From Gammaproteobacteria bacterium (GTDB lineage Bacteria; Pseudomonadota; Gammaproteobacteria; Pseudomonadales; Halieaceae), in the NCBI GenBank assembly GCA_030426545.1, contig JAUHYL010000035.1, positions 1 to 41,057 on the forward strand: DNA of 41,057 bases, written 5' to 3'. The notes under the pieces are model-generated. The model had not been told where the DNA came from, did not search any database, and saw nothing but the letters and a program-made list of their open reading frames with translations. A program made the translations under genes and the position numbers. Below, piece by piece: positions 7,014-27,309 of the stretch. Numbering within the stretch: position 1 is the stretch's first letter; the number at the start of each line of letters is the position of its first letter.

Positions 7014-7664
7014 ATGAACCGCGATGACAAAAAAATCCGCCTCGGAATGTTGTGCTTCGTCCTGTACGGCGTGATGGCCAGTATCGGTTTACCGCTGCGT
7101 GGGCCGGTGATCATACCGTCGCAAAACCCGGACCTCTGGGCCGAAGTTGCGCTGTTGCCGACGCACGATATCGCCTGGGCGCTGTTGTTGCCGGCGCTGG
7201 TTGTGCAACTGTTCGGGTTCATGGCCTTCTGGGGGTTTATGAAGGATCGCCCCGGCGGTGAATTGGCGTTCTGGGGTATGGTGCTGTCCATTTTCGGCAA
7301 CGGATTGTTTTTGCCCAGCACCGGCATTCTGGCGTTTGCTGATCCGCACACGGCGGCACTTTACCAGTCCGGTGCCACCGATGCGGCGCTGACCATTGCC
7401 AGCGCCGGCGTCTCCGGTGCGCTATCTGGCACGATTCTCGCGGGCTCGGGCATCCTCCTGCTCATCGGCTCCATCCTGATCGGGATCACACTGTGGAAGT
7501 CACCGCTGTTCCCGCGCTGGACAGCGGTCGTTTACGTGCTGCACGCCTTTGCACTCACGCTGGCAGTGACGATGTCCTACACAGTGGAGCGCCTGGGCGG
7601 CTTCGCCATTCTTGTCGTGGCCATCGTGTTGGCCAGGGTGGTGTGGAAAGAGACTGCCCGTTAG
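7014..7664 (+). CDS. Hypothetical integral membrane protein, about six helices
   Basis: A 216-residue, strongly hydrophobic protein with about six predicted transmembrane segments (near residues 10-27, 52-76, 84-108, 125-160 as two helices, and 170-210). I recognise no catalytic motif and can assign no specific family with certainty; the overall look is of small DUF-type multi-helix proteins. There is no cleavable signal peptide, so it should sit in the inner membrane. It follows the b561 gene closely and probably shares its transcript, which makes an electron-transfer accessory role possible but unproven. A hairpin lies just after the stop, between this gene and the convergent NmrA-like gene. 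Confidence 0.75.
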   Translation: MNRDDKKIRLGMLCFVLYGVMASIGLPLRGPVIIPSQNPDLWAEVALLPTHDIAWALLLPALVVQLFGFMAFWGFMKDRPGGELAFWGMVLSIFGNGLFLPSTGILAFADPHTAALYQSGATDAALTIASAGVSGALSGTILAGSGILLLIGSILIGITLWKSPLFPRWTAVVYVLHAFALTLAVTMSYTVERLGGFAILVVAIVLARVVWKETAR

Positions 7665-7718: not shown

Positions 7719-8672
7719 CTATGCCGCGTCGCCGTGATCGAATTCTTTCATGACCGGCGTGATCAGTTTTCCAAGCCCGTCTTTCATGGCCGCGATTTCC
7801 TCCGAGTCCGGATCCCAGAAATTACGGTAGTCCTCCAGGTACTGGCGCATTGTGGTCGGCGGCCGTCCCAGCAGTTGTTCGAGGGCGTCTGTTTGCGGCG
7901 CGTTCTTGCCAAAGCGGGTCAGGGTGTACACGATGACCATGAAGCCGTAGACGTCCCAGGTCAGGCCGCGCTTTCTCAGCCGATGCACGAAGCGCGGCAG
8001 GGATGGGTTGGTGTATTTTATCCGGCGCCCCGCGACCTCTGAAATCATTGCTTCCACGTCATGGTAGGAGAGCTGCTCCGGCCCCGTCAGCACGTAGGTT
8101 TTTCCTCTGTGCGGCTGCGGCTCGCGCATGATCTTGACCGCCACTTCGGCGACGTCGCGTGAGTCGATGAACGAAGTCACACCTTTGCCGGCAGGGACAA
8201 ACAACTCGTCGGAATCGGCGATATCCAGGGCGTGCGTGGTGATGTCGCGACTCAGGTTCTGCGCGAAGAAGGCCGCCTGCAGTATGGTGAACGGCACGCC
8301 GCATTCGCGCACCGCCTTCTCAACGTGGTAGTGCGGCACAAACTTGAGCTGGTCTGCATTCGGCACCGAGACGTAAATGATGTGCTGCACGCCCGCTTCA
8401 GCGGCCGCCTGCACAAATGGCGCCATCCATAAGCGCGCGGTCTTTGGATGGGGCAGGGGAAACAGCAGAAAGAGCACGCTCACCCCTTGCAGCGCGTCGT
8501 GCCAGGTCGACCGGTCACCAAAATTGAATTTCACGCGCGGCACATCCGCGCCGTACAGGCGCGTGATTTTTTCTGGCGTGTGCGCGGCAATACGAAAGTC
8601 CAGATCGGTCTGCATGAGCTGCTTGACCAGTTCGGTGCCGACATTGCCGTTCGGTCCTGTGACGAGAATCAT
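7719..8672 (-). CDS. NmrA-like NAD(P)-binding atypical SDR
   Basis: A 317-residue NAD(P)H-binding protein of the NmrA/atypical short-chain dehydrogenase group. The N-terminal Rossmann motif is TGPNGNVGTELV, close to the family GxxGxxG. The protein continues with the usual 'LFLLFPLP', 'YVSVPNAD' and 'HVEKAVRECGVPFTILQ' blocks. It lacks the YxxxK pair of classical SDRs, as expected for this group, which includes quinone reductases, redox sensors and isoflavone-reductase-like enzymes. The ATG at 8672 has AGGAG seven bases upstream; the longer upstream frame is non-homologous. It lies 26 bases after the acyl-CoA dehydrogenase gene and is the last gene of the kinase-ANTAR-dehydrogenase transcription unit. 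Substrate unknown. Confidence 0.85.
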   Translation of the reverse strand: MILVTGPNGNVGTELVKQLMQTDLDFRIAAHTPEKITRLYGADVPRVKFNFGDRSTWHDALQGVSVLFLLFPLPHPKTARLWMAPFVQAAAEAGVQHIIYVSVPNADQLKFVPHYHVEKAVRECGVPFTILQAAFFAQNLSRDITTHALDIADSDELFVPAGKGVTSFIDSRDVAEVAVKIMREPQPHRGKTYVLTGPEQLSYHDVEAMISEVAGRRIKYTNPSLPRFVHRLRKRGLTWDVYGFMVIVYTLTRFGKNAPQTDALEQLLGRPPTTMRQYLEDYRNFWDPDSEEIAAMKDGLGKLITPVMKEFDHGDAA

Positions 8673-8698: not shown

Positions 8699-9985
8699 TT
8701 ATTGTGGCGGCGCGACGGGGGGCGGCATGTCTCCCGGGCCCTGCGGGGGCATACCGGGAGGTGGCGGCAAGTCGCCGCGCACCATACGCAGGAAGTTGAC
8801 GATGCCCAGCCGCAGCATGTCGCGGGTGCCATCGCATGCGTCGCCCACCCAGGCGTCATTCAGGAAGCGGCCCGGTTCGTAGGCCTCGCTGAGGCCGTAG
8901 CTGCCCAGAATCTTCAGGGCGCGTTCGGCGTTGCGAATGGCAACGTCTACCGCGAAGGTCTTGGCGGCCGGCGAGATGATGCCCGCCGCCTGCGGGTCGC
9001 CGTTGTCCGCAGCCCAGGCAAGTTTCCAGACCATCAGGCGTGCCGCTTCAAGGTCCGCGACCATGTCCGCAAGCTTGAGCTGTACCGCCTGGTGATTGAT
9101 GATCGGCGTGCCCCAGCTTACCCGTTCGTTGGCGTAGGCGTACGCAACATCCAGCGCGGCCCGTGCCAGGCCTATGTACGTCGCCGCGAGTCCGGCAGCG
9201 AGGTAGGGAATCGTCTGCATGAAGAAAATGGCGCCGTTGGCGCCCTCTTCGCCAATGCGGTTCTCCTCCGGCACCTGGACATTGTCGAGAAAGACCTCGC
9301 AGTGCATGGCGGTTTTCCAGCCGATAAGGTGATTTTTCGCCCCGAGACTCAGCCCTGGCGAGTCTGCGGGGACGAGGAACATGGAGGTACTGTCCATCGC
9401 CGGGCGGTTGAGGTCGGTGCGGGCCATCACGAAAAAGGACCTGGCGGCCCCCGCATTGGTAGAAAAGCCCGCCTTGCTGCCGTTGAGCGTGTACACACCG
9501 TCGCCGCGCACTGCAGTGGATCGCAGGCCGATCTTCGGATCGGGTATTGGGCAGAAGGAGTCGGCGCCGGCGACATTGGGTTCGCTGCTGGCAGAGGCGA
9601 GTACGTGGTCAGTCTCGCCGGTGAATCGATTAAGCCAGTACTCCCGCTGCTGGTCGTTGGCGCCCTTGAGTATGATGATCGGGGACGTGGTGCTGACATT
9701 GAAATAGGACGCCGCGATACCCAGGTCAACCGCGCCGAACTCTTCCATGATCAGCACGTTGTCCATGCAGGTTCCGCCCAGGCCGCCGTACTCCTCGGGA
9801 ATCAGAATTTTCGTGAACCCCAGTTCAACGCCGCGGGCGTAGGTGTCTTTCAGGATGTCCCAGGGCGTCTGGTCAGGTCTGCGCGCCATGATCGCCGCCG
9901 CGGCGGGCCGGATCTCCTTTTCCGCGAAGTCTTTTGCGGTCTGTTGGTACATTCTCTGTTCGTCAGTCAGACTGAAATCGATCAT
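8699..9985 (-). CDS. Acyl-CoA dehydrogenase family protein with Asp at the catalytic Glu position and a Pro-rich tail
   Basis: A 428-residue flavoprotein with all three acyl-CoA dehydrogenase domains: N-terminal helices (DFSLTDEQR), middle beta-domain (SSEPNVAG...), and C-terminal helices (ERVSWGTPIINHQA, ILGSYGLSEAYEPGRFLNDA). The family oxidises acyl-CoA thioesters to 2-enoyl-CoA using FAD. The usual catalytic Glu of the IYEGT motif is replaced: the aligned segment is ACDGTRDM with D385. The last 26 residues are a proline-rich tail, unusual for this family. It is paralogous to the enzyme at 27310. The ATG at 9985 gives the canonical N-terminus. The gene lies 58 bases downstream of an ANTAR-type attenuator, behind the kinase-regulator genes, so antitermination should control it. 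Confidence 0.9.
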   Translation of the reverse strand: MIDFSLTDEQRMYQQTAKDFAEKEIRPAAAAIMARRPDQTPWDILKDTYARGVELGFTKILIPEEYGGLGGTCMDNVLIMEEFGAVDLGIAASYFNVSTTSPIIILKGANDQQREYWLNRFTGETDHVLASASSEPNVAGADSFCPIPDPKIGLRSTAVRGDGVYTLNGSKAGFSTNAGAARSFFVMARTDLNRPAMDSTSMFLVPADSPGLSLGAKNHLIGWKTAMHCEVFLDNVQVPEENRIGEEGANGAIFFMQTIPYLAAGLAATYIGLARAALDVAYAYANERVSWGTPIINHQAVQLKLADMVADLEAARLMVWKLAWAADNGDPQAAGIISPAAKTFAVDVAIRNAERALKILGSYGLSEAYEPGRFLNDAWVGDACDGTRDMLRLGIVNFLRMVRGDLPPPPGMPPQGPGDMPPPVAPPQ

Positions 9986-10042: not shown

Positions 10043-10077
10043 AAAAAAGCCCTCCCCGCTGTATGCGGGGAAGGCTT
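10043..10077 (-). terminator. Strong intrinsic terminator (part of ANTAR attenuator)
   Basis: On the minus strand AAGCCTTCCCCGC (10077-10065) pairs with GCGGGGAGGGCTT (10059-10047) over 13 base pairs with one G-T wobble. The loop is five bases and a run of six T (10048-10043) follows. It lies after the ANTAR regulator gene and before the acyl-CoA dehydrogenase gene on the same strand. Confidence 0.9.
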
Positions 10078-10108
10078 CGTTACCTTTTTGCGAGACGCCA
10101 TTGCCTCG
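10043..10108 (-). promoter_or_regulatory. ANTAR dual-hairpin target RNA with overlapping terminator
   Basis: Hairpin P1 (10108-10091) is CGAGGC-AATGGC-GTCTCG, a six-pair stem with a hexaloop. After a four-base linker, hairpin P2 (10086-10071) is AAGGT-AACGAA-GCCTT, a five-pair stem with a hexaloop. Both loops have A at position 1 and G at position 4, the established signature of RNA targets of ANTAR-domain antiterminators such as EutV, NasR and AmiR. The 3' half of P2 (10077-10071) is also the base of the terminator stem, so P2 and the terminator cannot form together. The ANTAR protein should stabilise P1/P2 and allow read-through into the acyl-CoA dehydrogenase and NmrA-like genes. It starts 44 bases after the regulator's stop. 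Confidence 0.85.
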
Positions 10109-10152
10109 AAGTTGTGGAATTGTTAACCCGCGTTGTGGTGACTGTCAAGTGG

Positions 10153-10722
10153 TCAGTTGCCCGTGTACAACTCAATAATCAACTCTGCGACGCGTGACTG
10201 CGTTACGTTTTTGTTCATGCTGACCTTCTGGATTTTGCGGTACGCCTGCGCCTCGGTGATTTTCTCGTGTTCGCACAGCAGGGCCTTGGCGCGCTCCATT
10301 ACTTTTCTGTCCTGCAGTTGCTGCTGCAGGCGCTCGACCTTGTCACTGAGTTGCGCCTCGCGCAGAAAGTGCGTAACGGCCAGCTCCACCGCAGGCTCGA
10401 TATCCTGCTCCCGAAAGGGTTTGGTGAGGTATGCCATGACGCCTGCGTCGCGCGCCGCATGTACGAAATCGGGGCTGCTATGGGCAGTCAGCATGATGAT
10501 TGGAATGTCGCGCGCCAGAATGCGCGACACTTCGATGCCGTCGACATTGGGCATTCTGATGTCCAGAATGATCACGTCCGGCGCGGCCTGTTCGACCCGG
10601 GACAATACCTCGGCCCCGTCAGCCGCCTCGCCGCACACGCTGTAACCCAGGCCCTCCAGCAGTTCACGCAGGTCAGCGCGGATCAGTGCCTCGTCATCAG
10701 CGATCAGTACCTTAAGTGCCAT
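10153..10722 (-). CDS. ANTAR-domain response regulator (RNA-binding antiterminator)
   Basis: A 189-residue two-domain protein. The receiver domain (about residues 3-120) has the acidic pair D9/D10, phospho-acceptor D54 in ILDIRMPNVDG, T79 and K101. A coiled-coil linker (KVERLQQQLQDRKVMERAK) leads into the C-terminal ANTAR domain (about 125-185), with the pattern AKALLCEHEKITEAQAYRKIQ...VTQSRVAELII. ANTAR proteins bind two-hairpin RNA and block formation of a terminator; phosphorylation promotes dimerisation in EutV-type members. The ATG at 10722 overlaps the 3' end of the kinase gene by 11 bases, so the pair is translationally coupled. A matching dual-hairpin target lies immediately downstream, and related leaders occur at 12027 and 15756. 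Confidence 0.95.
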   Translation of the reverse strand: MALKVLIADDEALIRADLRELLEGLGYSVCGEAADGAEVLSRVEQAAPDVIILDIRMPNVDGIEVSRILARDIPIIMLTAHSSPDFVHAARDAGVMAYLTKPFREQDIEPAVELAVTHFLREAQLSDKVERLQQQLQDRKVMERAKALLCEHEKITEAQAYRKIQKVSMNKNVTQSRVAELIIELYTGN

Positions 10723-11976: not shown

Positions 11977-12076
11977 CGGGTTGACTCCAGCCCGCGCTGC
12001 GAGGAGAGTGGAGCCATGAGAATTTCGGGTGACGAAGCCCCTTTGACTGCGTAAGCAGCAGAGGGGCTTTTTTTTT
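11977..12076 (+). promoter_or_regulatory. Leader attenuator of TonB receptor 1 with ANTAR-like P2
   Basis: Hairpin CGGGTT-GACTCC-AGCCCG (11977-11994) has a six-base loop. Further on, GGGT-GACGAA-GCCC (12027-12040) has the same geometry as P2 of the 10071-10086 element: a T-G closing pair, a hexaloop ending in GAA with G at position 4, and a 3' arm that opens the terminator stem. Loop position 1 is G rather than the consensus A, and no canonical A1/G4 first hairpin was found. It is therefore a divergent ANTAR target candidate or another attenuator type. Confidence 0.55.
12035..12076 (+). terminator. Intrinsic terminator in the 5' leader of TonB receptor 1
   Basis: AAGCCCCT (12035-12042) pairs with AGGGGCTT (12062-12069). 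An inner CTGC-GTAA-GCAG stem-loop closes the structure, and nine T follow (12068-12076). It lies 65 bases upstream of the receptor start, in the same direction. No gene upstream on this strand needs it, so it is most likely a regulated attenuator. Confidence 0.88.
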
Positions 12077-12141: not shown

Positions 12142-14532
12142 GTGAACAAGCATAAGACCGAGAAAACGATCCTCCCCCTGGCACTTGCGTCTGCTCTGGC
12201 GACTGGCTCGCTGGTTCAGAGTGCAGCGGCACAGACTGCACTGGAGGAAGTGCGCGTTACTGCACAGAAGCGGGAGCAGAGCCTGCAGGAGGTCCCCGTG
12301 GCTGTCAGCGTATTCAACGCGGATGACCTGCAGAATGCGAGCTTTGTGTCGTTGTCAGATGCGCTGGACTTTTCGCCCAATGTGCGTCGCACCTCTGGCC
12401 CCAGCGGCACCAATGACGCCTTTTTCTTCTTCCGCGGCGTCGGCCAGACAGACAACAACATCAACGTCGACCCGGGTGTTGGTGTGTACATCGATGAGGT
12501 TTACCTTGGTCGCCTGCAGGGCGCATCCCTGAATCTGTTCGATGCCCAGAGAATAGAGATACTGCGCGGCCCGCAGGGTACGTTCTTCGGCCGCAACACC
12601 ATGGGCGGTGCGGTGAACATGACCACCCGTGACCCCAGCGAAGAGCCCTCGTTCCAGGCGAGGGTGGTGGCTGGGGAGCGCGATCGGTTCGACGTTTATG
12701 GCGCTGCGTCCGGTTATCTGACCGACAATTTCGGCGCGCGCATTTCTGCTTACACACGCAGCCAGGACGGTTGGACGGAGAGCATTTACAACGGCGAAAC
12801 CTACGGTGATGTAGACGAGCAGGGCGCACGCCTGAAATTACTCTGGGACGTTTCCGACCGGTTGATGGTCAGCTTTGGTGCTGACTACGCCACGGACAGT
12901 GGCACCCAGGTGGGCAGGAGCCTGATCGGCTTTAACCCGGAGGCGAACACGGTATTGGCGGGAACTTTCTCGCCGCCGGGAGCGCCCTTCATGATTCCGC
13001 CCTTTGATCTGGTGGGTAACTCGCCCACGCTGGTGCCCTTTCCACTGGACATGGGTGACGAGTTGGATGCGGATCCGTTTGACGACAGGATTTTTAGCGA
13101 GGGCGATGCCACCAGCGATACCGACCGCGGTGGGGCTAACCTCACGGTAAAGTGGGGCGGCGACAGCATCTCGATCAAGTCAATCACGGCCTGGCGCGAT
13201 GTTGACCAGGAGACCGGGTCCGATCTCGATGGCACCGGTTACCACTTTTACAATGCTGAATTCGATACCAGCGCAGAGCAGTTCAGCCAGGAGTTCCAGT
13301 TTACCGGCACGGCGCTTGATGATCGCCTGGCCTGGACCGGTGGCCTGTATTACATGGACGAGCAGGTGGAGGGTTTCACCGGTATCTGTGTGGGCGTGAC
13401 CGAACCGCCGCAGGGGCCACCAAACCCGTTCCCGCCACTGTGGATACCCGATCCTTCGACAACCCAACGCAACGACGATCGTTGTTTGCAGTTTGTATCC
13501 AACATCGAACTCGATGTTGAATCCTATGCCGCCTACGGCCAGGTTGAATATGATCTGACCGATCGCCTCACCGCTATTGCCGGGTTCCGCTATACCGATG
13601 AGGAGAAGGACCAGGAGTTCCTCACGTTCAGCGACAACACCGACGGCGTATTGTCCTGGCTGCCGCCACCCATTGCGCCGCTACCGGGCACCACCGCGCC
13701 GGGCGTGGGCCCCGAGACACCGCCCTACAAGTTCAACAAGTCGTGGGATGAATTCTCTCCCCGACTGGGTGTCGATTACACGCTGAACGACGATGCCAGT
13801 GTTTACTTCACCTGGTCCAACGGCTTCAAGAGTGGCGGTTTCGCCGGTCGCGCAACGCCGGGCAAGGCGGTGGAGGATTTTGACCCGGAAACACTGGAGT
13901 CCTGGGAGCTGGGCTTCAAATCGGAGTGGCTTGACCGGCGTGTGCGCTGGAACACTGCCGTGTTCTTCTCCGACTACGATGATATCCAGATGCTGGTGCT
14001 CGATTCCGTGATCGCGGGCAATCCCCAGTTCATCACGATCAACGGTGGGCGCAACGAGATCTGGGGTGTTGAGTCCGAAGTCTGGGCGATTCCTTTGCCT
14101 GGTCTGGAACTGACGCTGGGCGTCGGTTACCTTGAGAACGAGTGGAAGGACCTGGCGGAAGGTGCCGTCATTGAAGAAAGCGACGAGTTGCCCAACGCGC
14201 CGGAGTGGACAGTCAACTTCTCCGCGCAGTACATGCTGCCGTTGGGCGACCTGGGTAATTTGCTGATGCGCGGCGACTACTCCTACACGTCGGAAGTCTC
14301 TTTCCAGCCAGCCAACGAACCGCTGGACATCCAGGATGAGTACGACCTCGTGAATGTGCGTTTTGCCTACCTGCCCGTTTCGGGTAACTGGAGCGTCGCG
14401 CTGTACGGTCGCAACGTGTTCGAGGAGGAGTATTTCCTGACGGCGAGCGACAACAGCAACGATCTTGGCGTGGCCACTGCGGTGTCGGCGCCGCCCTCGG
14501 AGTGGGGTATCGAGCTGAACATCGATTTCTGA
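12142..14532 (+). CDS. TonB-dependent outer-membrane receptor 1
   Basis: A 796-residue receptor. The signal peptide covers about residues 1-30. A TonB-box-like EEVRVTAQ follows, then the plug domain (to about residue 165) with the strongly conserved LRGPQGTFFGRNTMGG. The rest is the 22-strand barrel, ending in aromatic F796 for outer-membrane assembly. The GTG start at 12142 has GGAGG six bases upstream. Family members import siderophores, vitamins, carbohydrates or hydrophobic and aromatic compounds using TonB energy. The position beside a kinase-ANTAR pair and catabolic genes argues for uptake of a carbon source rather than iron. It is paralogous to the receptor at 29415. A terminator follows the stop. 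Confidence 0.95.
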   Translation: MNKHKTEKTILPLALASALATGSLVQSAAAQTALEEVRVTAQKREQSLQEVPVAVSVFNADDLQNASFVSLSDALDFSPNVRRTSGPSGTNDAFFFFRGVGQTDNNINVDPGVGVYIDEVYLGRLQGASLNLFDAQRIEILRGPQGTFFGRNTMGGAVNMTTRDPSEEPSFQARVVAGERDRFDVYGAASGYLTDNFGARISAYTRSQDGWTESIYNGETYGDVDEQGARLKLLWDVSDRLMVSFGADYATDSGTQVGRSLIGFNPEANTVLAGTFSPPGAPFMIPPFDLVGNSPTLVPFPLDMGDELDADPFDDRIFSEGDATSDTDRGGANLTVKWGGDSISIKSITAWRDVDQETGSDLDGTGYHFYNAEFDTSAEQFSQEFQFTGTALDDRLAWTGGLYYMDEQVEGFTGICVGVTEPPQGPPNPFPPLWIPDPSTTQRNDDRCLQFVSNIELDVESYAAYGQVEYDLTDRLTAIAGFRYTDEEKDQEFLTFSDNTDGVLSWLPPPIAPLPGTTAPGVGPETPPYKFNKSWDEFSPRLGVDYTLNDDASVYFTWSNGFKSGGFAGRATPGKAVEDFDPETLESWELGFKSEWLDRRVRWNTAVFFSDYDDIQMLVLDSVIAGNPQFITINGGRNEIWGVESEVWAIPLPGLELTLGVGYLENEWKDLAEGAVIEESDELPNAPEWTVNFSAQYMLPLGDLGNLLMRGDYSYTSEVSFQPANEPLDIQDEYDLVNVRFAYLPVSGNWSVALYGRNVFEEEYFLTASDNSNDLGVATAVSAPPSEWGIELNIDF

Positions 14533-15755: not shown

Positions 15756-15799
15756 GGGTGAAGAAGCCCCACCACCGCCAAGCGGTGGTGGGGCTTTTT
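15756..15799 (+). promoter_or_regulatory. Leader attenuator of the DapA/NicX operon with ANTAR-like P2
   Basis: GGGT-GAAGAA-GCCC (15756-15769) matches the P2 position at 12027-12040: the 15-base word GGGTGA(C/A)GAAGCCCC differs at one base. The 3' arm again opens the terminator stem. Upstream RNA can fold strongly (GGCCCG with CGGGCC, GCTGCG with CGCAGC, GTCG-CAG-CGAC), but no A1/G4 hexaloop was found for a canonical first hairpin. Loop position 1 is G, not A. Confidence 0.5.
15764..15799 (+). terminator. Very strong intrinsic terminator upstream of the DapA-like gene
   Basis: AAGCCCCACCACCGC (15764-15778) pairs perfectly over 15 bases with 15782-15796, leaving a CAA loop and a T5 tract. It lies 150 bases before the DapA-like gene in the same direction. 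The SnoaL-like gene runs the other way and away from it, so this terminator ends no upstream gene and is best read as a leader attenuator. Confidence 0.85.
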
Positions 15800-15949: not shown

Positions 15950-16987
15950 ATGAGTATTGCCGCCGCGGAGCGCAAGGCCTGGGCCGGGGAGACATTGGTC
16001 GGGGTGCAGAACATCACCTTTCCCTCGTTCACCCCGGATATGTCGGAACTGGACGAGGAGGGCATCCGCCTGGATGTCAGGCAGGCCAAGGCGCACGGTT
16101 TCTTCGGCACGCTGTGCGCCTGCGAGACCGGGCTCAGTTTTGCCGAAGCGAAGCAGTTCGTCTCCATCGTGGCCGACGAGGCTGGTGACGAGTTGGTGGT
16201 GGCGGTGACCCTGCTGCTGGATTCGCTGCAGCGCAACCACGCACTGGCCCTGCACGCGGCGGGTGCGGGCGCCGACCTGCTGCAGGTCGGGTTTCCCCCC
16301 AACTACTACCCGGACGACGCGCAGCAGATCTACCAGACGCTGCACGCGCTGAGCGTGGCGACCGACCTCGGTATCGTGCTCTATCCCAGTCCGCACTATA
16401 ACCTCGAGCGATTTCATCCCAGCGGCTTCCCGCTGGACGTGCTCGAACGCATGGCGGAACTGGACAACGTCGTTGCCGTGGAGGCGGGAGAGCCTGGTCT
16501 CGCGGCAGACATGATCCAGCGCTTTGGGGGCCGGCTGCTGATCAACAACCCGATAGAGCGCCACCTGCCGTTGATGGTGCAGGCCGCTGGGCAGCAATAC
16601 ATCGGCCCTGGCTGCTACGAGTCATTGCAGTCCCCCGAGCAGCGCAATGTCGTCGATTACTTCGCCCTGCTGCGGGACGGCAAGACCGAAGCCGCCATGG
16701 ATATCTACTGGAAACTGACACCGGCGCGCGGTCTGTTCGAGGCAAAGATGATGCCCACCGCCATGCTCGGCTGCTATCACTGGCCGCTGCAGAAGTACTA
16801 CCAGTGGCTGGTCGGCGGGAATGGCGGCTATACGCGCCAGCCCTGCATGAAGCTCCACCAATTCGAGATGGAGCCCATCAAGTTCACGCTGATGCAGATG
16901 GGGATCGTGCCTCGTCAGCCGGACGAGGAATTCTACCTCGGTCGGGCCAACCTGGCGCGGGGTTTGAGCGCCGCGAAAACGCTGTAA
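15950..16987 (+). CDS. DapA/dihydrodipicolinate synthase superfamily protein lacking the Schiff-base lysine
   Basis: A 345-residue TIM-barrel protein of the DHDPS/N-acetylneuraminate lyase superfamily. It follows the family order: GVQNITFPSFTPD start, the G-x-x-G-T-L-x-A-x-E-T-G segment in place of GTTGE, QVGFPPNYYP, IVLYPSPHYN (Y145 at the catalytic Tyr position) and LDNVVAVEAGEPG. In family enzymes the last block reads NIVGIKEASGD with the catalytic Lys; here the aligned residue is E178. Classical imine-forming aldolase or lyase chemistry is therefore unlikely. It is the first gene of a plus-strand catabolic run (AhpD-like, CurA-like, NicX-like, hydrolase). AGGGAG precedes the ATG. It may act as a hydratase or a lysine-independent lyase; the reaction is unknown. 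Confidence 0.82.
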   Translation: MSIAAAERKAWAGETLVGVQNITFPSFTPDMSELDEEGIRLDVRQAKAHGFFGTLCACETGLSFAEAKQFVSIVADEAGDELVVAVTLLLDSLQRNHALALHAAGAGADLLQVGFPPNYYPDDAQQIYQTLHALSVATDLGIVLYPSPHYNLERFHPSGFPLDVLERMAELDNVVAVEAGEPGLAADMIQRFGGRLLINNPIERHLPLMVQAAGQQYIGPGCYESLQSPEQRNVVDYFALLRDGKTEAAMDIYWKLTPARGLFEAKMMPTAMLGCYHWPLQKYYQWLVGGNGGYTRQPCMKLHQFEMEPIKFTLMQMGIVPRQPDEEFYLGRANLARGLSAAKTL

Positions 16988-17130
16988 GCTGTTAGGTAAT
17001 CGCTGCCCTTATCCATAACTATTACTACTGCCCTCGGCGCACCCAGTCAGTGCACTATGGACGGGTCAGGCAGCATACTGTCGGTCACAGTCCGCCAGCC
17101 AACGCTTGGCGAAAACCAGGGAGAACACGC

Positions 17131-17733
17131 ATGGCACATATCGACCCGCTTCCACCCGAAGACCTGACGGAGTTTCAGCCACTGTTTGAGCAGATGGAAA
17201 AAATGGCCGGCTTCGTGCCGAACAGCCTCAAGACCATGGCGCGCCGACCCGCTATTTTGAAAGGTTACTTTGCCCTGGCAAACGGCGTGATGATGGACGG
17301 CGAGGTGGATCTGCAACTCAAGCGGATGGCGGCCCTGATGGCGTCCACCGCGTCGGGCTGCCGCTACTGCCAGGCGCACATGGCAATTTTCTCAAAAGTG
17401 ATGGGCGTGTCAGCCGAATCGCTGATGAAGATTTACCAGTTTGAGCTGGACGACAGTTTCACCGACGCCGAAAAAGCCGTTCTGCGCCTGGCGCGCGACG
17501 CCGGCAGCGTGCCCAACGCGGTGACCGCAGAGCACTTCGCCGAACTGGGCGAATTTTTCAGTGATGACCAGATCGTCGAGATTGTCGGTGCGATATCGCT
17601 GTTCGGCTTTCTCAACCGCTGGAACGACACCATGGGTACCGACCTCGAGGAGGCGCCGCTGCAGGTCGCCAGCGAAACCCTGGCCAACGTCGGTTGGCGC
17701 GCCGGTAAGCACGCTGGCGCTGATGCGGGCTAG
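17131..17733 (+). CDS. Carboxymuconolactone decarboxylase/AhpD-like protein
   Basis: A 200-residue all-helical protein of the CMD/AhpD superfamily. The redox motif is intact: SGCRYCQAH gives C77, C80 and H83, the C-x-x-C-x-x-H arrangement of AhpD-like peroxidase partners. True carboxymuconolactone decarboxylases lack the CxxC, so a peroxidase or disulfide role is more likely than decarboxylation. The ATG at 17131 has AGGGAG eight bases upstream; upstream codons in the same frame are unrelated. It ends 12 bases before the CurA-like reductase gene and lies in the same operon. CCATAACT at 17013, in its upstream gap, resembles the palindrome at 11960. Confidence 0.88.
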   Translation: MAHIDPLPPEDLTEFQPLFEQMEKMAGFVPNSLKTMARRPAILKGYFALANGVMMDGEVDLQLKRMAALMASTASGCRYCQAHMAIFSKVMGVSAESLMKIYQFELDDSFTDAEKAVLRLARDAGSVPNAVTAEHFAELGEFFSDDQIVEIVGAISLFGFLNRWNDTMGTDLEEAPLQVASETLANVGWRAGKHAGADAG

Positions 17734-17745
17734 GGCGACAACAGC

Positions 17746-18756
17746 GTGAGTGAAACAACACAGCAGTGGGTGGTCACCGCTTACCCGGACGGATTGCCGG
17801 GTCCTGCACACTTTGTGCTGGAGGAAAGCGATCTGCCCGCGCTGCAGGACGGCGAGGTGCTGGTGGAACCCATCTACCAGTCCATGGATCCGCTACCGCG
17901 CGTGCGGCTCAATCCCGACAACGGGCGTATCCCGCCCCTGCCGCTGGGCAGTGTGATGATCGGTCGTGCGGTCGGGCGGGTACTGGCCTCGCGCAGCACT
18001 GACTGCGCCGAGGGCGATATCGTCTGCGGCGAGATGGGCTGGCGCACGCGGGCGGTGGTTCGCGCGGCCGACCTCAGTGCGGTGGATCCGGCGCTGGCGC
18101 CGATCTCCACCGCGCTCGGCGTACTCGGTCCCTCGGGTATTGCCGCGTACTGTTCGCTGTTCGAACTGGGCCGGCCCGAACAGGGCGAAACCGTGCTGGT
18201 GCCCGCAGCCGCAGGATCAGTCGGGTCGATTCTCTGCCAGTTGGCGAGGATCAGGAATTGCCACGTGGTTGCCATAGGTGGCGGCGATGAGGAGTTGCAC
18301 TACCTGCGTGATGAACTGGGTGTGGCGCGTGTCGCCGACTGGCGCGGCGAAGGCTTTGACCAGGCGCTTGCGCAACAGCTGCCGGACGGTGTCGATGTAT
18401 TTATTGATCTCGTCGGCGGTGACATCCATAACCTAGCGATGCGCCACATCAACGTAGGAGCGCGCATTGCGCTGGTCGGGTATGTTTCTGCCTATAACGC
18501 GGCTGGCCGGCCGCAGAACTACGGCGACATTTATTCCGTCATTCACAAGCGCGCTACGATGCGTGGTTTTCTGGCGCCGGACTTCGCGGCGATGGTGCCA
18601 CAGGTGCTGTCCTCACTGGCCGGCTGGATCGACAGCGGTGAGTTGAGCTACACCGAGCATGTCGACCGGGGCTTTGACAGCCTGCCCGCGAGCTTCGGAG
18701 CACTGTTCAGCGGCTTTCATCCGGGCAAGAAACTGGTGCAAGTCGCTGATTTGTAA
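17746..18756 (+). CDS. CurA/PTGR-like NADP-dependent oxidoreductase (zinc-free MDR)
   Basis: A 336-residue medium-chain reductase of the leukotriene B4 12-hydroxydehydrogenase / CurA (YncB) branch. The diagnostic N-terminus is W-x-x-x-x-YPDGLPGPAHFVLEE, then GEVLVEPIYQSMDPLPRVR. The nucleotide-binding turn is AAAGSVGSILCQLA. There are no structural or catalytic zinc ligands, as expected. These enzymes reduce the C=C bond of enones and related alpha,beta-unsaturated carbonyls with NADPH. The GTG start at 17746 lies 12 bases after the AhpD-like gene. The position between ring or chain-processing enzymes suggests reduction of an unsaturated intermediate. Confidence 0.87.
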   Translation: MSETTQQWVVTAYPDGLPGPAHFVLEESDLPALQDGEVLVEPIYQSMDPLPRVRLNPDNGRIPPLPLGSVMIGRAVGRVLASRSTDCAEGDIVCGEMGWRTRAVVRAADLSAVDPALAPISTALGVLGPSGIAAYCSLFELGRPEQGETVLVPAAAGSVGSILCQLARIRNCHVVAIGGGDEELHYLRDELGVARVADWRGEGFDQALAQQLPDGVDVFIDLVGGDIHNLAMRHINVGARIALVGYVSAYNAAGRPQNYGDIYSVIHKRATMRGFLAPDFAAMVPQVLSSLAGWIDSGELSYTEHVDRGFDSLPASFGALFSGFHPGKKLVQVADL

Positions 18757-20779: not shown

Positions 20780-22354
20780 TCATCGGTTGGCTGCGTAGTC
20801 ACTCCAGTTTTTCACCAGTTCGGCGGCGCCGCGCTCGGCGAGTGCGTGAATGGTAAACGTTGGGCTGGCGCCATTGCAGGCGGGTATCAGCCCACCTCCG
20901 GCCAGCCACAGGTTGCTGTGCTCATGCACCCGACCGTAGCCATCGGTGACCGAGTTTTCAGGGTGATCGCCCAGCAGAGTACCGCCCACCATGTGCCCGG
21001 TGTTCATGCGCGACGTCCAGTCCTCAGTGGCCCCGGCCGCCTGCATCACCGTCTTGCCCTGTCGCGCCATGTAGTCCCAAAGAGCGCGCGCTTCCTGCGT
21101 GAAACTGTGCGTCATGCGTGGCAGTGGCATGCCGGCACTGTCGCGTTGAGAGGTCAGCTCGATGCGGTTTTCGCTCCTGCCAAGGCAGCCCCCGAAGCCA
21201 ACCATGCTTGCCAGGTGGCGGCTGCCGCGATCAATGAACGCGTGCAGCGCATCGCCCATCAGGTCCGGGCGCGTAGCGGCAATGCCGAACAGGTCATTGG
21301 GTTTGACAGCCGGGGCGATCTGCCATTGCAGACCGCCGTCGACGCCATCGCGACCCGGATCGCGGAACGTCTCGCGATAGGTTAACTGGCCGGCGTTGAC
21401 GCCCAGGTGATTATCCGTGCGCTGCCTGAACAGGCCGTAGGTGCCAATCATGGTTTCCACTGAAAGGTGGCGCCCCACCCTGTCATGCCGATTGCCCAGC
21501 CCGGCGGGGTGTGCGGCGGACGTCGAGGCGAGCAGCAACCGCGGTGTTTGCACGATCGAGCCGGCAACGACCACCACGTCGGCGCTGCAAACAAGCGACT
21601 TACCTTGTTGTACGCAGCGCGCGCCAGTCACGCGGCCGCGGCGATCTGTGAGAAGCTCCAGCGCGGCCGTGTTGTGCAGTATTTCCGTACCGTGCCGGCG
21701 CGCCAGTGGCAGGTAGGTGAACAGGGGGTTAGCCAGCGCACCGATCGGGCAGCCGGCGTCGCACCAGCCATCGTAGAGACAGGCGGGGCGACCGGCGTAG
21801 GGTTTTGTGTTGATCGCCAGCGGTAGCGGCGCGACGGTTTTATCGAGTCGCTTGAAGCCGTCTGCCAACAATTCGCCCTGCGCGAACACCGGTACCGGCG
21901 GCATGGGGTAGGGCGCACCCGGGCCGCGCCAGGGCTCACGCGTCGCGTCCCCGCTGACGCCTACGAATGCCTGCACCTTGTCATACCAGGGCGCCAGTTC
22001 GGCGTAGTCGAATGGCCAGTCGCGGCCGCGGCCATGTTCGCTGTGCTGGCGGAAGACCTCGGGATGCAGGCGCGGCCAGGTCGCGTAGTGGTGTAGCGCG
22101 GCGCCACCGGTGCCCCAGCCGCTGCCGCTGTTGTGTGCGACGAAGTCCTTACCGCCGGGCAGCACCGGCGGCCCTCCCCATTTCAGCCGCCGGGCCCAGA
22201 GTTGGGAGGAGACGAGATCTTCCGCTTGCCACTGTGGCCCCATCTCCACGACCAGCACCTGCTTGCCGGCCTCGGCCAGTCGCGCGGCGTAAACCGAGCC
22301 TGCGGCCCCGGCGCCGATGACCAGCACCTGCGTGCTGTAGTCGGCCTTGCCCAT
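20780..22354 (-). CDS. GMC family oxidoreductase 1
   Basis: A 524-residue FAD enzyme. The dinucleotide-binding motif is VIGAGAAGSVYAARLAEAG with E at the end of strand 2. A cysteine-rich CLYDGWCDAGCPIGALANP segment is typical of gluconate-dehydrogenase-like GMC proteins. The first catalytic His is present (H454, TGHMVGGTLLG). The second His/Asn, 43 residues later in this family, is S497 in GASPT. It has no signal peptide; export could depend on a Tat-bearing partner such as the protein at 26559. Its ATG overlaps the preceding GMC stop as TGATG. The substrate is an unknown alcohol or similar compound. Confidence 0.88.
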   Translation of the reverse strand: MGKADYSTQVLVIGAGAAGSVYAARLAEAGKQVLVVEMGPQWQAEDLVSSQLWARRLKWGGPPVLPGGKDFVAHNSGSGWGTGGAALHHYATWPRLHPEVFRQHSEHGRGRDWPFDYAELAPWYDKVQAFVGVSGDATREPWRGPGAPYPMPPVPVFAQGELLADGFKRLDKTVAPLPLAINTKPYAGRPACLYDGWCDAGCPIGALANPLFTYLPLARRHGTEILHNTAALELLTDRRGRVTGARCVQQGKSLVCSADVVVVAGSIVQTPRLLLASTSAAHPAGLGNRHDRVGRHLSVETMIGTYGLFRQRTDNHLGVNAGQLTYRETFRDPGRDGVDGGLQWQIAPAVKPNDLFGIAATRPDLMGDALHAFIDRGSRHLASMVGFGGCLGRSENRIELTSQRDSAGMPLPRMTHSFTQEARALWDYMARQGKTVMQAAGATEDWTSRMNTGHMVGGTLLGDHPENSVTDGYGRVHEHSNLWLAGGGLIPACNGASPTFTIHALAERGAAELVKNWSDYAANR

Positions 22355-23934
22355 CAGGCGGACGCCCCGGTGCGCGTCGCCCAGTGATCGAGCGCGTGTT
22401 GACCGCTGCGCGCAGCCAGCGCGTAGAGGGTGAACGTGGGGCCGATGGCGCCGGCGCTGGGCAGCAGGCCAGCGCCGGTGATCTGCAGGTTGCGGTGATC
22501 GTGAGTGAAGCCAAAGCTGTCGGTGACCGAGGTAGCGGGATCTGCGCCCATGAGGGTGCCGCCCATGGGGTGCACGGTGACCAGGCGCGAAGTCCAAACG
22601 GCGCCCGCGCCCGCAGCGCGCATGACACGCTCGGCGGTGTCGCGTGCGTGCTGTGCCAGCGCCAGGGTATTCGCGCTGAAGGAATGCACAACGCGCGGGC
22701 CAGGCAGGAGCTGGCCGGTTCCGGTGGTCAGTTCAATGCGGTTATCCCGGGCGGGCACCACTTCGCATTCGCTGGTAATCGCGGCGAGCCGTTTGCCCTC
22801 AACGCTGAGGAAGTCATGCAGTGCCTGACCGTGCAGATCCGGGCGCGTGTTGGCAATGCCCATCAGGTCATTCGGTTTCAGTGCGGCGCCAAAGCCCAGC
22901 ATGATGCTGCCGAAAGGCCCCTTGGGGCGCAGCTTGCCGTATTCACTGAAGCTGATGTGCGAACCGGAGGTGATGCCAAGGTGATTGTCGGTAGGCGCCG
23001 GCATCACGCCGTAGGTCGTTGACAGGGCGTGGCAGTAGAAGTGGTGGCCGACCCGGCCGGAGCCGTTTGCCAGTCCGTTGTCGCCCGAGCGCAGCAGCAG
23101 TGCCGCGTTCTGGATGGCGGAACCCGCCAGTACGAAGAGCCGGGCGCGGCAGGTGCCGCTGCGTCCCTCGCGGTCTCGCCAGGAGAGCCTGGCGATGCGC
23201 CCGTCGGCGCCTGTCAGCAGTCGCTCGACGAAGGTGTCGCAGCGAACAGCGGCACCGTGTTCCCGCGCCTGCTGCAAATGGAGCACCAGCGGATTGGCCA
23301 GCGCGCCAGTGGGACAGCCCGCATCACACCAGCCGTCGTACTGGCAGCCGGGGCGGCCCTTGTAGGGACTGGTATTGACTGCCGCTGGTGCGGGGGAGGT
23401 GCGCAGGCCCTGGGCCTGGAAACCACGCTGCAGTATTGCCGCCTGTTTGAACTCGGGCAATGGCGGCATTGGATAAGGCTCGCCCGCCGGTCGTCCTTCC
23501 TCACGCTCGCTGTCACCGCACAGGCCCACCTCGGCCTGGATGCGGTCGTACCAGGGTTGAAGTTCGCTGTAGTTGAAGGGCCAATCCATGCCGCGTCCGT
23601 AGCGGCGCTGTAGTTCGAAATCGTCGGGCCGTAGCCGCGGCCAGCCGGCATAGTGGTGCAGCGCTGCGCCGCCCAGCCCCCAGCCAGTGCTCATATTGTG
23701 TCCCAGCGGGTTGGCGCCGGCCACGGGTACCGGTGCTCCGCCCCACTTCAGGCGGCGTGCCCAGATTTGTGAGCTGACCAGGTCGTCGGTACTCCAGCGC
23801 GGACCGGCCTCGAACAGGGTGACCTGCCTGCCGGCACGGGCGTACAGGCTGGCCAGGTACAGACCAGTGGCGCCGCCGCCGATGATGGCGACCTCACTGT
23901 GCAAATCGGTTGCGGTGTTGATTGCGTCGTTCAT
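22354..23934 (-). CDS. GMC family oxidoreductase 2
   Basis: A 526-residue paralogue of the next gene, collinear along the whole length. The FAD motif is IIGGGATGLYLASLYARAG. Shared blocks include DLVSSQIWARRLKWGG, GLGGAALHHYAGWPRL, and CQYDGWCDAGCPTGALANP. The first catalytic His is H455 in VHPMGGTLMG; the second position is G498 in AIGPT instead of His/Asn. The ATG at 23934 gives the family N-terminus; an open frame extending far upstream is not homologous. The stop overlaps the GMC 1 start, so the two are made together and may form a heterodimer. It is divergent from the YdhR-like gene with a 186-base gap holding the promoters. Confidence 0.88.
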   Translation of the reverse strand: MNDAINTATDLHSEVAIIGGGATGLYLASLYARAGRQVTLFEAGPRWSTDDLVSSQIWARRLKWGGAPVPVAGANPLGHNMSTGWGLGGAALHHYAGWPRLRPDDFELQRRYGRGMDWPFNYSELQPWYDRIQAEVGLCGDSEREEGRPAGEPYPMPPLPEFKQAAILQRGFQAQGLRTSPAPAAVNTSPYKGRPGCQYDGWCDAGCPTGALANPLVLHLQQAREHGAAVRCDTFVERLLTGADGRIARLSWRDREGRSGTCRARLFVLAGSAIQNAALLLRSGDNGLANGSGRVGHHFYCHALSTTYGVMPAPTDNHLGITSGSHISFSEYGKLRPKGPFGSIMLGFGAALKPNDLMGIANTRPDLHGQALHDFLSVEGKRLAAITSECEVVPARDNRIELTTGTGQLLPGPRVVHSFSANTLALAQHARDTAERVMRAAGAGAVWTSRLVTVHPMGGTLMGADPATSVTDSFGFTHDHRNLQITGAGLLPSAGAIGPTFTLYALAARSGQHALDHWATRTGASA

Positions 23935-24120
23935 GCTCGCTCGCTGCTGGTCAACCGGCAGGATACCTGTCGCGCGCGGTGATTGCAGGGTCCAAGCGAG
24001 GGTCAGGCCATTCCCAAAATTTATGCCGTGGCAGTGCGTGCTCAGTTGCCACAGGGCAGCGCTCGCTGCCATGCTGGCGCCAGTGTCAATTTGAATGCTG
24101 GAACAGGAGTTGTGCCGATC

Positions 24121-24444
24121 ATGTATACCGTTATTACCCGCCTGCAGTTGCCGCCCGATATTACCGCCGAGAAAGCCAAAGCCCATATGGAGGAAAGTAT
24201 TCCCGTGTACAAGGGTTGTCCCGGACTGGTGCGCAAGTACATAGGCTGCGACCTTGAGGCCAAACAGGCCATCGGCGTCTACCTGTGGGAAACACGGGAG
24301 CAGTTTGAGACCTACTTTGCCCGGGCGTCTGCGATGATCAAGGCGCAGACGGGCACGGAGCCGCAGTACGAGATTTTTGAGACCCCGGTGATCGTCGACA
24401 ACAAGAGCGACGAGGTGATAATCGAGCCTTTCCCGAAGGGGTGA
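24121..24444 (+). CDS. YdhR/antibiotic-biosynthesis-monooxygenase-like small protein
   Basis: A 107-residue ferredoxin-like-fold protein. The pattern ITRLQLPPDITAEKAKAHME...YKGCPGLVRKYIGCD...GVYLWETREQFETYF is that of YdhR and ABM-domain proteins, which are small dimers acting as cofactor-free monooxygenases or binding small aromatics. No catalytic residue can be assigned. The stop is 3 bases before the GTG of the NmrA-like gene, so the two form a coupled pair divergent from the GMC operon. AGGAG lies about 12 bases before the ATG, a little long. The reaction is unknown. Confidence 0.8.
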   Translation: MYTVITRLQLPPDITAEKAKAHMEESIPVYKGCPGLVRKYIGCDLEAKQAIGVYLWETREQFETYFARASAMIKAQTGTEPQYEIFETPVIVDNKSDEVIIEPFPKG

Positions 24445-24447
24445 CCG

Positions 24448-25320
24448 GTGATTAAGCGGGTACTGGTCGTCGGTGCCACTGGCACACTGGGTGCTCCCGT
24501 GGCACGCGCCCTGCTGGATCACGGTTACGCCGTGCGGGCCCTGGTCCGGTCGACAGCGCGCGCCGCGGCCAACCCGCTGCTGGACGGCGCCGAATGGGTA
24601 GAGGGCGATGTGCTGGATGCGAAATCCGTGCGCGTCGCGATGCAGGATTGCCAGGCGCTGTACAGCAGCCTCAGCAGTGACTCCTTCGATTTGAAGCAGA
24701 GCGTCGAATACCGCGGCAACCGCGTGCTGTGCGCCGCCGCCGCTGAAGCGGGCCTGGCGTGGGTAGGCTATATCTCCGGCGCTGGAGATCTCGCAGCGTT
24801 TGGGGAGCACCGGCCACTGGTCATCAAAGCGAACTGTGAGGCGCTGTTCCGGCATTGCGGCGTACCGTATACCGTGTTCAAGCCCACACATTTTTTTGAG
24901 AGCCTGCCGCTGTTTGTGCGTGATGGACGCATCGCTATTCCCGGGCGTCAGGTGCAGCGCTATCACTATCTCGCCGCCGCAGACTACGCACAGGTCGTGG
25001 TTGCCGCGATGGCGGAGTCCGGCTGTCACCGGCAGTCGCTGACACTGCTTGGGCCCGAGGCGTTGTCCATGGCTGAGGCACTGGCCATCTATCGCGACGC
25101 GGTCATGCCCGGACAGCGCATCGGCTACCTGCCATTGTGGCTGGCACGTACGTTGGGCCGCCTGCCGCCGCTGGCGGATATGGGTCGCATGGCAGAGTTG
25201 TTCACCACCTTCGACGCGGGCATTCCCGAGGGCGAGGCCAGTTTGCTGCCCGCGCATTTTCCCGCGATCAGTACACGGTGTAAGCAGTGGAGTGAAGCGC
25301 AAGCATTGTCATCTACATAG
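24448..25320 (+). CDS. NmrA-like NAD(P)-binding atypical SDR 2
   Basis: A 290-residue atypical SDR with Rossmann motif VVGATGTLGAPVARALLDHG and R at the NADP-selecting position (ALVRST). Later blocks are WVEGDVLDAKSV, YISGAGD and the NmrA-type GVPYTVFKPTHFFESLP. It belongs to the same broad group as the gene at 7719 but is not a close copy. The GTG start at 24448 lies 3 bases after the YdhR-like stop, with AAGGGG upstream. It is probably an NADPH-dependent reductase or isomerase in the same pathway as the GMC enzymes; the substrate is unknown. Confidence 0.85.
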   Translation: MIKRVLVVGATGTLGAPVARALLDHGYAVRALVRSTARAAANPLLDGAEWVEGDVLDAKSVRVAMQDCQALYSSLSSDSFDLKQSVEYRGNRVLCAAAAEAGLAWVGYISGAGDLAAFGEHRPLVIKANCEALFRHCGVPYTVFKPTHFFESLPLFVRDGRIAIPGRQVQRYHYLAAADYAQVVVAAMAESGCHRQSLTLLGPEALSMAEALAIYRDAVMPGQRIGYLPLWLARTLGRLPPLADMGRMAELFTTFDAGIPEGEASLLPAHFPAISTRCKQWSEAQALSST

Positions 25321-26558: not shown

Positions 26559-27119
26559 TCACCAGGGTGTGGGCGGTCGTATGTGCGCCATGTACGGCAC
26601 ACCCAGGCGCTCAAAGCCTTTCTCCGTGCCGTAGTAAACATCGACCGCGTCTGAGCGCAATGCAAAATAGAATAGTGGTGAAGGAGGCCCGCGCCAGTCG
26701 GCCGGTTGCTTGAAACTGATTTGACCGACCATTGCGCTGCGCTGTTCGTTGCTGCAGGCCGCGAAGGCCTTCTTGTGATGCCCCTGGGCAAACTGCTCCA
26801 GCGCCGCCAGGCCGCCGCGGTAGAAATCTGCATAGGGCGGCGGTACGTCGAGGTAGCGCAGCATCAGTAGACAGTCCGCCTCGGGCTGCGCAAGGTGGAA
26901 ATCAACGAACTCGCACAGGCCTTCCTCGCGGCTTCCCGGCAGGAGAACTTCACCCAGGGCACCCAGCGTCGTGCGTTCCTGATTATTCAACACACTGAAC
27001 TCGTAGTCGCCGGACGCGTGCGCCTCGGCGGGGCTGAGATAGTGTATCGAGGCACCGCTGCCCACGGCGATCATGCCCAGGCCCAGTTGGCGCAGAAAGT
27101 CTCTTCGTTCTGTCTGCAT
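26559..27119 (-). CDS. Gluconate 2-dehydrogenase subunit 3 family protein (Tat signal)
   Basis: A 186-residue small subunit of the gluconate 2-dehydrogenase type. The N-terminus carries a twin-arginine signal, ERRDFLRQLGLGMIAVGS, with a likely AHA cleavage site near residue 35. The mature part has the family pattern NNQERTTLGALGEVLLPGS, a C-x-F-V-D-F segment and the late W-x-G-P-P-S block. In known complexes this subunit partners a GMC flavoprotein without its own signal and carries it through the Tat system; a cytochrome c subunit completes the enzyme. Two such GMC genes lie at 20780-23934. No cytochrome subunit is seen here. The ATG at 27119 is set by the Tat motif. Confidence 0.88.
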   Translation of the reverse strand: MQTERRDFLRQLGLGMIAVGSGASIHYLSPAEAHASGDYEFSVLNNQERTTLGALGEVLLPGSREEGLCEFVDFHLAQPEADCLLMLRYLDVPPPYADFYRGGLAALEQFAQGHHKKAFAACSNEQRSAMVGQISFKQPADWRGPPSPLFYFALRSDAVDVYYGTEKGFERLGVPYMAHIRPPTPW

Positions 27120-27204
27120 GCGACGGCTCCACGTTAGCGCTGCGCGAATAAGGAGCACTCTAGCCAATTGTCCCGCGGCACACCACCTGCGTTGCCTGCG
27201 CAGG

Positions 27205-27216
27205 CCATAACTTATC
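27205..27216. promoter_or_regulatory. Candidate operator CCATAACTTATC
   Basis: The reverse complement GATAAGTTATGG shares ATAAGTTATG with the perfect palindrome at 11960-11972. It lies in the 190-base divergent region between the Tat small subunit and the second unusual acyl-CoA dehydrogenase. Functional status is unknown. Confidence 0.35.
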
Positions 27217-27309
27217 GCCATTACCGTCGGGCTCACAGGGAGTTGATTCGTGTGCGGCGCCTGTGCCTAGATGGAGCGGTAATCAAATGCGAAGAGGTAG
27301 ATACCCACC

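Follow-up and report, generated by a model that had tools for sequence, protein, structure and literature searches.

Putative ANTAR-controlled attenuators, mostly of a single hexaloop, around a histidine kinase/ANTAR regulator gene pair and catabolic genes of a gammaproteobacterium

The window, which means here the whole 41,057-nucleotide stretch of DNA analysed, carries a sensor histidine kinase gene (P0002, 10712–11878, minus strand; HisKA_2, HATPase_c, and GAF matches) that overlaps the gene of a response regulator (P0001, 10153–10722, minus strand), and it is taken as the cognate kinase. EutW is also a HisKA_2-type kinase. For the regulator, the ATG at 10722 suffices as the start, without recourse to the longer listed ORF; its product consists of a receiver plus an ANTAR domain, since both PF00072 and PF03861 scored above their cut-offs. 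PF03861 gave a single match in the whole assembly (97.85% complete), namely this regulator, the sole ANTAR gene. An acyl-CoA dehydrogenase gene (8699–9985, minus strand, ATG at 9985) and an NmrA-family gene (7719–8672, minus strand, ATG at 8672) were assigned by Pfam, and the site under study (10043–10108, minus strand) lies between the two gene pairs with everything on one strand, which agrees with its placement in an earlier sequence-only reading. Genes located near the elements described below encode two acyl-CoA dehydrogenases, an NmrA-family protein, cytochrome b561, and two TonB receptors (Pfam), as well as GMC oxidoreductases, a Gluconate_2-dh3 protein, FAA hydrolases, a sulfatase, an enoyl-CoA hydratase/3-hydroxyacyl-CoA dehydrogenase, and a thiolase. 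A Pfam scan of 27 window proteins revealed no nitrate- or ethanolamine-type gene. The genes near the elements point to some carbon compound being taken up and oxidized, though the substrate itself is a guess; only the genes directly behind the three window elements are claimed as targets. Adjoining the cytochrome b561 gene is that of a 216-aa protein (7014–7664, plus strand), which had no Pfam or NCBIfam match and is kept in two related genomes (G246 and G280) at 46–58% identity. Two adjoining GMC oxidoreductase genes were located at 20780–25302 (minus strand) and a Gluconate_2-dh3 gene at 26559–27236, whose relatives in G280 sit beside DHDPS-family genes.

Among solved structures, P0001 was closest to 1s8n (3.4e-46), which we take to be Rv1626/PdtaR, and the EutV entries 6wsh/6ww6 gave 1.6e-34. 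The EutV residues that hold G4, the fourth base of the hexaloop, are described in the accessible part of the structure paper (PMC8934654), and the EutV numbering was carried to P0001 with an offset of 2. Equivalents of the G4-holding residues Arg142, Lys149, and Glu160, together with that of Met172, are invariant among the four orthologs, in which the equivalent of Tyr164 is Y, H, Y, and F. Arg168, Arg175, and Arg177 of EutV correspond to Q, N, and T in the window's regulator.

A dual-hexaloop ANTAR target is described, in the accessible text of PMC3369931, as two hairpins, P1 and P2, whose hexaloops carry A1 and G4, P2 overlapping a terminator. At the site under study, RNAfold placed P1 (CGAGGC-AATGGC-GTCTCG) at 10091–10108 on the minus strand, with six pairs and an A1/G4 hexaloop (AAUGGC in the RNA) at 10102–10097, and P2 (AAGGT-AACGAA-GCCTT) at 10071–10086 on the same strand, with five pairs, at least three being looked for, and an A1/G4 hexaloop (AACGAA) at 10081–10076 closed by a U.G pair. 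The linker between them is CAAA (4 nt), and sequence and folding thus confirm the two hexaloop hairpins with a four-base gap noticed in the sequence-only reading. P2 overlaps an intrinsic terminator of the right direction (10043–10078, minus strand; T6 at 10048–10043), which takes the 3' arm of P2 and loop bases 4–6 into its own 5' arm. This overlap and the T6 tract stood as previously read, and the seven shared bases and 13 pairs given there became approximately 8 bases and 14 pairs by RNAfold. Folding of 10115–10070 produced exactly P1 and P2 (−11.6 kcal/mol, z −1.6), an energy that is not significant alone, as it was equalled by 16 of 200 shuffles. When the 3' arm was included (10090–10040), the terminator beat P2, with −27.7 kcal/mol (z −6.0; 0/200 shuffles). 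The chance rate of such a P1 (A1/G4 hexaloop, at least six pairs, linker ≤8) was evaluated as 0.0003 from 3000 dinucleotide shuffles of its upstream stretch. Rfam gave no window match at gathering thresholds, and the sub-threshold rows at E ≤ 10 contained nothing relevant. A simple consensus scan listed neither the terminator of this site nor that of the TonB-receptor leader, a point against the attenuator reading; we think that the first, which RNAfold does find, was missed because its stem extends into the T tract.

Two further attenuators were found on the plus strand, both without an A1/G4 P1. The second (12027–12076), composed of the P2 GGGT-GACGAA-GCCC, an overlapping terminator, and a T tract, sits where the kinase gene and a TonB-dependent receptor gene (12142–14532, plus strand; Pfam) diverge. 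The third (15756–15799), composed of the P2 GGGT-GAAGAA-GCCC, an overlapping terminator, and T5, lies ahead of a DHDPS-family gene (15950–16987, plus strand; weak Pfam match), divergent from a SnoaL_4 gene; a CMD-family gene (17050–17733) and a zinc-binding-dehydrogenase-type gene (17746–18756) come after it. Because the upstream neighbors of both sites run in the opposite direction, these terminators look like leader attenuators rather than gene ends. The pattern ACGAAGCC-N{6,36}-GGCTTTT, derived from the given and TonB-receptor sites themselves, had exactly two matches in the 4.35-Mb assembly and none in the reversed control. Two looser markers were rejected. The relaxed pattern AAAAN{8,38}GGCTTCNTY gave 40 rows in the assembly (G000) versus 24 in the control, and 13 of the 34 strings passed a loose hairpin test; only folding separated the three window sites, which were the three of 34 distinct sites below −15 kcal/mol. 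When one mismatch was allowed, GGTRACGAAGCC, the P2 sequence, gave 81 matches versus 65 in the reversed control for G000 and 70 versus 53 for G018, so that the bare sequence is not informative without a terminator.

Orthologs of the regulator were identified in G018 (53% identity), G246 (60%), and G280 (54%), all of which keep the order kinase, ANTAR regulator, acyl-CoA dehydrogenase, with a small ORF also between the latter two genes in G280. The interval between these two genes, whose comparison among relatives had been proposed from the sequence, retained a P2-terminator in all four regulator-bearing genomes, including the window's. Seven more P2-terminators were found in the three other genomes, giving a total of ten, and the four not associated with acyl-CoA dehydrogenase precede TonB-receptor genes (G018 and G280), an NmrA gene (G246), and a cytochrome c gene (G280). 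All ten P2s align gap-free as GGU-[AG]A[ACU]G[AG]A-GCC (GGU-RANGRA-GCC), where G4 is present in 10/10 and A1 in 8/10, the remaining two having G. The GGU and loop base 2 are invariant although they lie outside the terminator, whose function does not therefore explain their conservation. In the stem, the three inner pairs are constant, the next two show A-U/G-C exchange, and the outermost fails in 6/10. Covariation of P2 is modest, lying above most shuffles (12/500 as high), and the pair-type count lies below them (488/500 as high). The P2-terminator overlap seen at all ten sites is a condition built into the scan. Short-motif matches close to a T run but outside the set of elements were removed by eye, with counts of three for the window, one each for L148 and L151, and four for L149; a further match, which duplicated the L149 acyl-CoA dehydrogenase site in an overlapping register, was removed as well. 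Terminator-like matches lacking a GGU/GCC P2 were also dropped, five from the window, six from L148, one each from L150 and L185, and fourteen more from 20 background loci (210,672 bases); a few of these rival the elements in folding energy, one in L185 reaching −26.6.

Close orthologs of the regulator, with the window's own included, were present in 2/140 family genomes (E ≤ 1e-30), 3/369 genomes of a class sample, and 2/398 of a phylum sample (both E ≤ 1e-32). An order sample gave 3/390 matches (E ≤ 1e-32), two of which were NasT-like at 33–34%, and the orders of G246 and G280 contained a close ortholog in 1/4 and 1/1 genomes (E ≤ 1e-32). A related-locus search found none above 46% identity among the 80 loci listed, and none of the 21 records obtained from the plasmid collection reached 60% identity. 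The kinase/ANTAR/acyl-CoA dehydrogenase module is thus patchy (2/140 in the family) and has relatives in further families of the class, a distribution that suggests horizontal transfer. The P2-plus-terminator pattern was detected in 9/369 class-sample genomes, consisting of the three regulator-bearing ones (3, 2, and 2 sites) and 6/366 others, and its reversed control matched in two genomes. Since the pattern was built from regulator-bearing genomes, their 3/3 and the Fisher p of 1e-5 for association with the regulator are partly circular. The informative part of this search is the rarity elsewhere together with G399, a genome in which P2-terminators were found at L204 8062 (minus strand; GGGT-AACGAA-GCCC) and L205 8068 (minus strand; GGGT-GAAGAA-GCCC). 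The genes that follow them encode a nitrite reductase and a formate/nitrite transporter. Both sites have upstream hairpins without an A1/G4 hexaloop, and the contig of the second match carries an NIT-ANTAR gene (L205 3347–4753). Matches in the five further genomes without a close ortholog are unexplained and count against the regulator link.

A P1 with an A1/G4 hexaloop, four or more contiguous pairs, and a linker no longer than 20 was present at 1/10 family sites, namely the given one. For comparison, nine control elements near other ANTAR genes were compiled (L187, L188, two in L189, L206, two in L207, L209, and L151), where the records of L187, L206, and L207 carry no annotation and L151 was assigned from Pfam. 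Not counted were L187 −17525, L189 +9673, L151 +10460/+10463, L148 −18422, window +3992, and three L208 sites, whose exclusion leaves L208 without a control element; L210 repeats L188. A P1 of at least six pairs was detected in 5/9 controls versus 1/10 family sites (p 0.06), and a sixth control element has a P1 with an interrupted stem that was found by eye. The value changes with the counting, to p 0.02 for 1/10 versus 6/9, to p 0.07 for 2/10 versus 6/9, and to p 0.15 or 0.06 when the two G399 sites are added to the controls (5/11 or 6/11). These counts are suggestive of P1 being commoner in the controls. All four controls located before annotated eut or nitrate genes (L188, both in L189, and L209) have a P1. 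Candidates without a good P1 also occur outside the family, in G864, in G399, and in Caballeronia. The G864 site (L151 8692, plus strand) has the P2 GGGC-AATGAA-GTCC with a terminator between NMT1-like binding-protein and MFS transporter genes, adjoins a receiver-ANTAR gene, and lacks an A1/G4 P1. On the unannotated Caballeronia plasmid record L207, the same P2 (GGAC-AACGGC-GTCC) appears near an ANTAR gene at 7432 (minus strand) and 7884 (plus strand), without a good P1; a 4-pair hairpin 29 nt away from one of the L207 sites was not scored as P1.

It is possible, on balance rather doubtful, that all ten sites are dual-hexaloop targets whose P1s are hidden by interrupted stems, other loops, longer linkers, or farther-upstream starts. 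The P1 scanner is strict enough for the interrupted P1 of the Acetoanaerobium control to escape it. The NmrA site of G246 has a weak AAUGGU hexaloop of four pairs approximately 23 nt away, which reaches six pairs with a bulge when folded, the acyl-CoA dehydrogenase site of G280 has an upstream hairpin with the loop GAGCAC, and three sites lack the TTGAC motif considered below. However, no A1/G4 hexaloop of even three pairs was found at the remaining 8/10 sites, the upstream 40 nt are nearly unstructured at two family sites (0.0 and −1.8 kcal/mol), and the comparison with the controls (5/9 versus 1/10, p 0.06; other counts p 0.02–0.15) points in the same direction. As for the conservation of loops and stems on which the sequence-only reading had been staked, P2 was kept in all ten sites and a firm A1/G4 P1 in one. 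The given site is a well-supported candidate ANTAR target on the combined basis of four genomes, one ANTAR gene, and the eut 13-mer; the established architecture ascribed to it holds to that extent, and the word "canonical" applies here only, P1 being absent or weak at the nine others.

A promoter-like sequence, TTGACA-18-AACAAT (10119–10148, minus strand), is situated between the ANTAR stop codon and P1, with a 10/12 match that none of 1000 shuffles equalled. TTGAC occurred within 75 nt upstream at 7/10 family sites (shuffle mean 0.80, maximum 5, 2000 rounds), being absent from that interval at the other three, and 40–52 nt ahead of the P2 loop at 6/10 (shuffle mean 0.13, maximum 2), a range picked after the data were seen. 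It was found at 1/11 control sites, and between the ANTAR stop codon and P2 at 3/4 acyl-CoA dehydrogenase sites. In the TonB-receptor leader, TTGACT (11981–11986, plus strand) is a possible −35 box, and the promoter scan detected none at this leader at its own threshold. The −10 boxes downstream of TTGAC match in only 3–4/6 bases, and at 5/10 family sites the top promoter was no better than 16–68% of shuffles. Read as a −35 box, TTGAC would place the start 5–14 nt before the P2 loop at six sites, and TTGACA at the given site would place it approximately 30 nt before the P2 loop, just ahead of P1. Transcripts may hence start almost at P2 at those six sites.

These observations bear on the proposal that the system controls read-through from its own operon as a direct feedback. 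That a canonical dual-hairpin target mainly governs read-through from the kinase–ANTAR operon into the acyl-CoA dehydrogenase gene fits the gene order, the strand, and the presence of both a good P1 and a good P2 at the given site. It is nevertheless unlikely, as a promoter-like sequence precedes P1, TTGAC separates the ANTAR stop codon from P2 at most of the acyl-CoA dehydrogenase sites, and the two other elements lie on the opposite strand, so that the regulator operon cannot read into their genes. The feedback design is hence not supported as the main account, and read-through from the regulator operon may occur at the given site in addition to its own promoter. That the sites are ordinary intrinsic terminators whose 5' flank is A-rich and conserved, with a coincidental ANTAR link, is very improbable, as the ability of loop bases G4-A5-A6 to pair with the U tract explains part of the loop conservation but leaves the invariant GGU and loop base 2 outside the terminator, the two window terminators in divergent leader regions, and the rarity of the pattern elsewhere (6/366 class-sample genomes without a close ortholog).

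The best explanation, to which we assign a probability of approximately 0.8, is that the three window attenuators, the given site being one, are controlled by the local histidine kinase and ANTAR regulator and read into catabolic genes. This explanation draws on the sequence, the predicted structures, their conservation, and the gene context, and the regulon is probably one of ANTAR attenuation for carbon catabolism by mostly single-hexaloop elements. Transcripts would begin at promoters just 5' of each element and, by default, stop at the strong terminator. Upon sensing a signal, the kinase would lead to phosphorylation of the regulator, which would bind the emerging P2 hexaloop and keep GCC paired with GGU, away from the 3' arm of the terminator. 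Antitermination would then allow the polymerase to continue into the acyl-CoA dehydrogenase/NmrA, TonB-receptor, and DHDPS-family genes. P1 of the given site could be a first landing point, as proposed for EutV, and the regulator would need to catch P2 alone at the P1-less sites.

The window may serve as a natural test of single-hexaloop use, with three attenuators (one with P1, two without) and one ANTAR gene, which is widened by the relatives in three other genomes. According to the accessible text of PMC3369931, eut linkers are 5–12 and a linker of 3 is harmful, deletion of P1 lowers induction, and a pair of stem-loops is bound better than a single one. The 2022 EutV-RNA structure paper (PMC8934654), in its accessible sections, describes one hexaloop as the minimal binding motif, reports a similar affinity for single hexaloops, and requires the dimer to contact each hexaloop, successively, to prevent termination; it leaves the use of single-hexaloop sites open. 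We tentatively propose, at somewhat less than even odds, that this is a natural ANTAR regulon whose single-hexaloop elements lie within approximately 15 nt of the transcription start and are sufficient for antitermination. If true, a promoter-proximal position would replace P1 as the loading step, contrary to the model of a dimer contacting both hexaloops. The regulon would also extend ANTAR attenuation to apparent carbon catabolism, versus the mostly nitrogen-management targets of the 2012 survey in its accessible text (PMC3369931). In the accessible parts of the open-access literature, neither this regulon nor any set of ANTAR attenuators with a single hexaloop was described, and the supplementary tables of the 2012 survey may list single sites.

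Among known systems, EutW/EutV of Enterococcus faecalis likewise consists of a kinase and a receiver-ANTAR regulator with a target beside the regulator genes, and eut leaders likewise place a P2 hexaloop over a terminator, with several leaders per regulator, as described in the accessible parts of PMC3369931 and PMC8934654. A Cetobacterium eut control has a dual-hexaloop element between the kinase gene and eutA, so a target beside its own regulator genes was already known. The P2 loop of the window family fits the AANGRR of the eut 13-mer AGCAANGRRGCUY given in the accessible text of PMC3369931, but its closing pair is U.G rather than C-G, loop base 1 is G at 2/10 sites, P1 is absent or weak at 9/10, and the genes served are not ethanolamine genes. 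Actinobacterial targets, according to the accessible text of PMC8164766, often cover a start codon or ribosome site, and terminators occur in few of them, whereas every family element lies on a terminator, as the scan required. PdtaR is the closest solved sequence to P0001 (1s8n, 3.4e-46). The NasR/NasT nitrate leaders likewise have the P2-terminator layout in proteobacteria, and the P2 of G399, with its NIT-ANTAR gene, is GGGU-RANGAA-GCCC, the same as in the family; these leaders serve nitrate/nitrite genes, unlike the cluster of the window.
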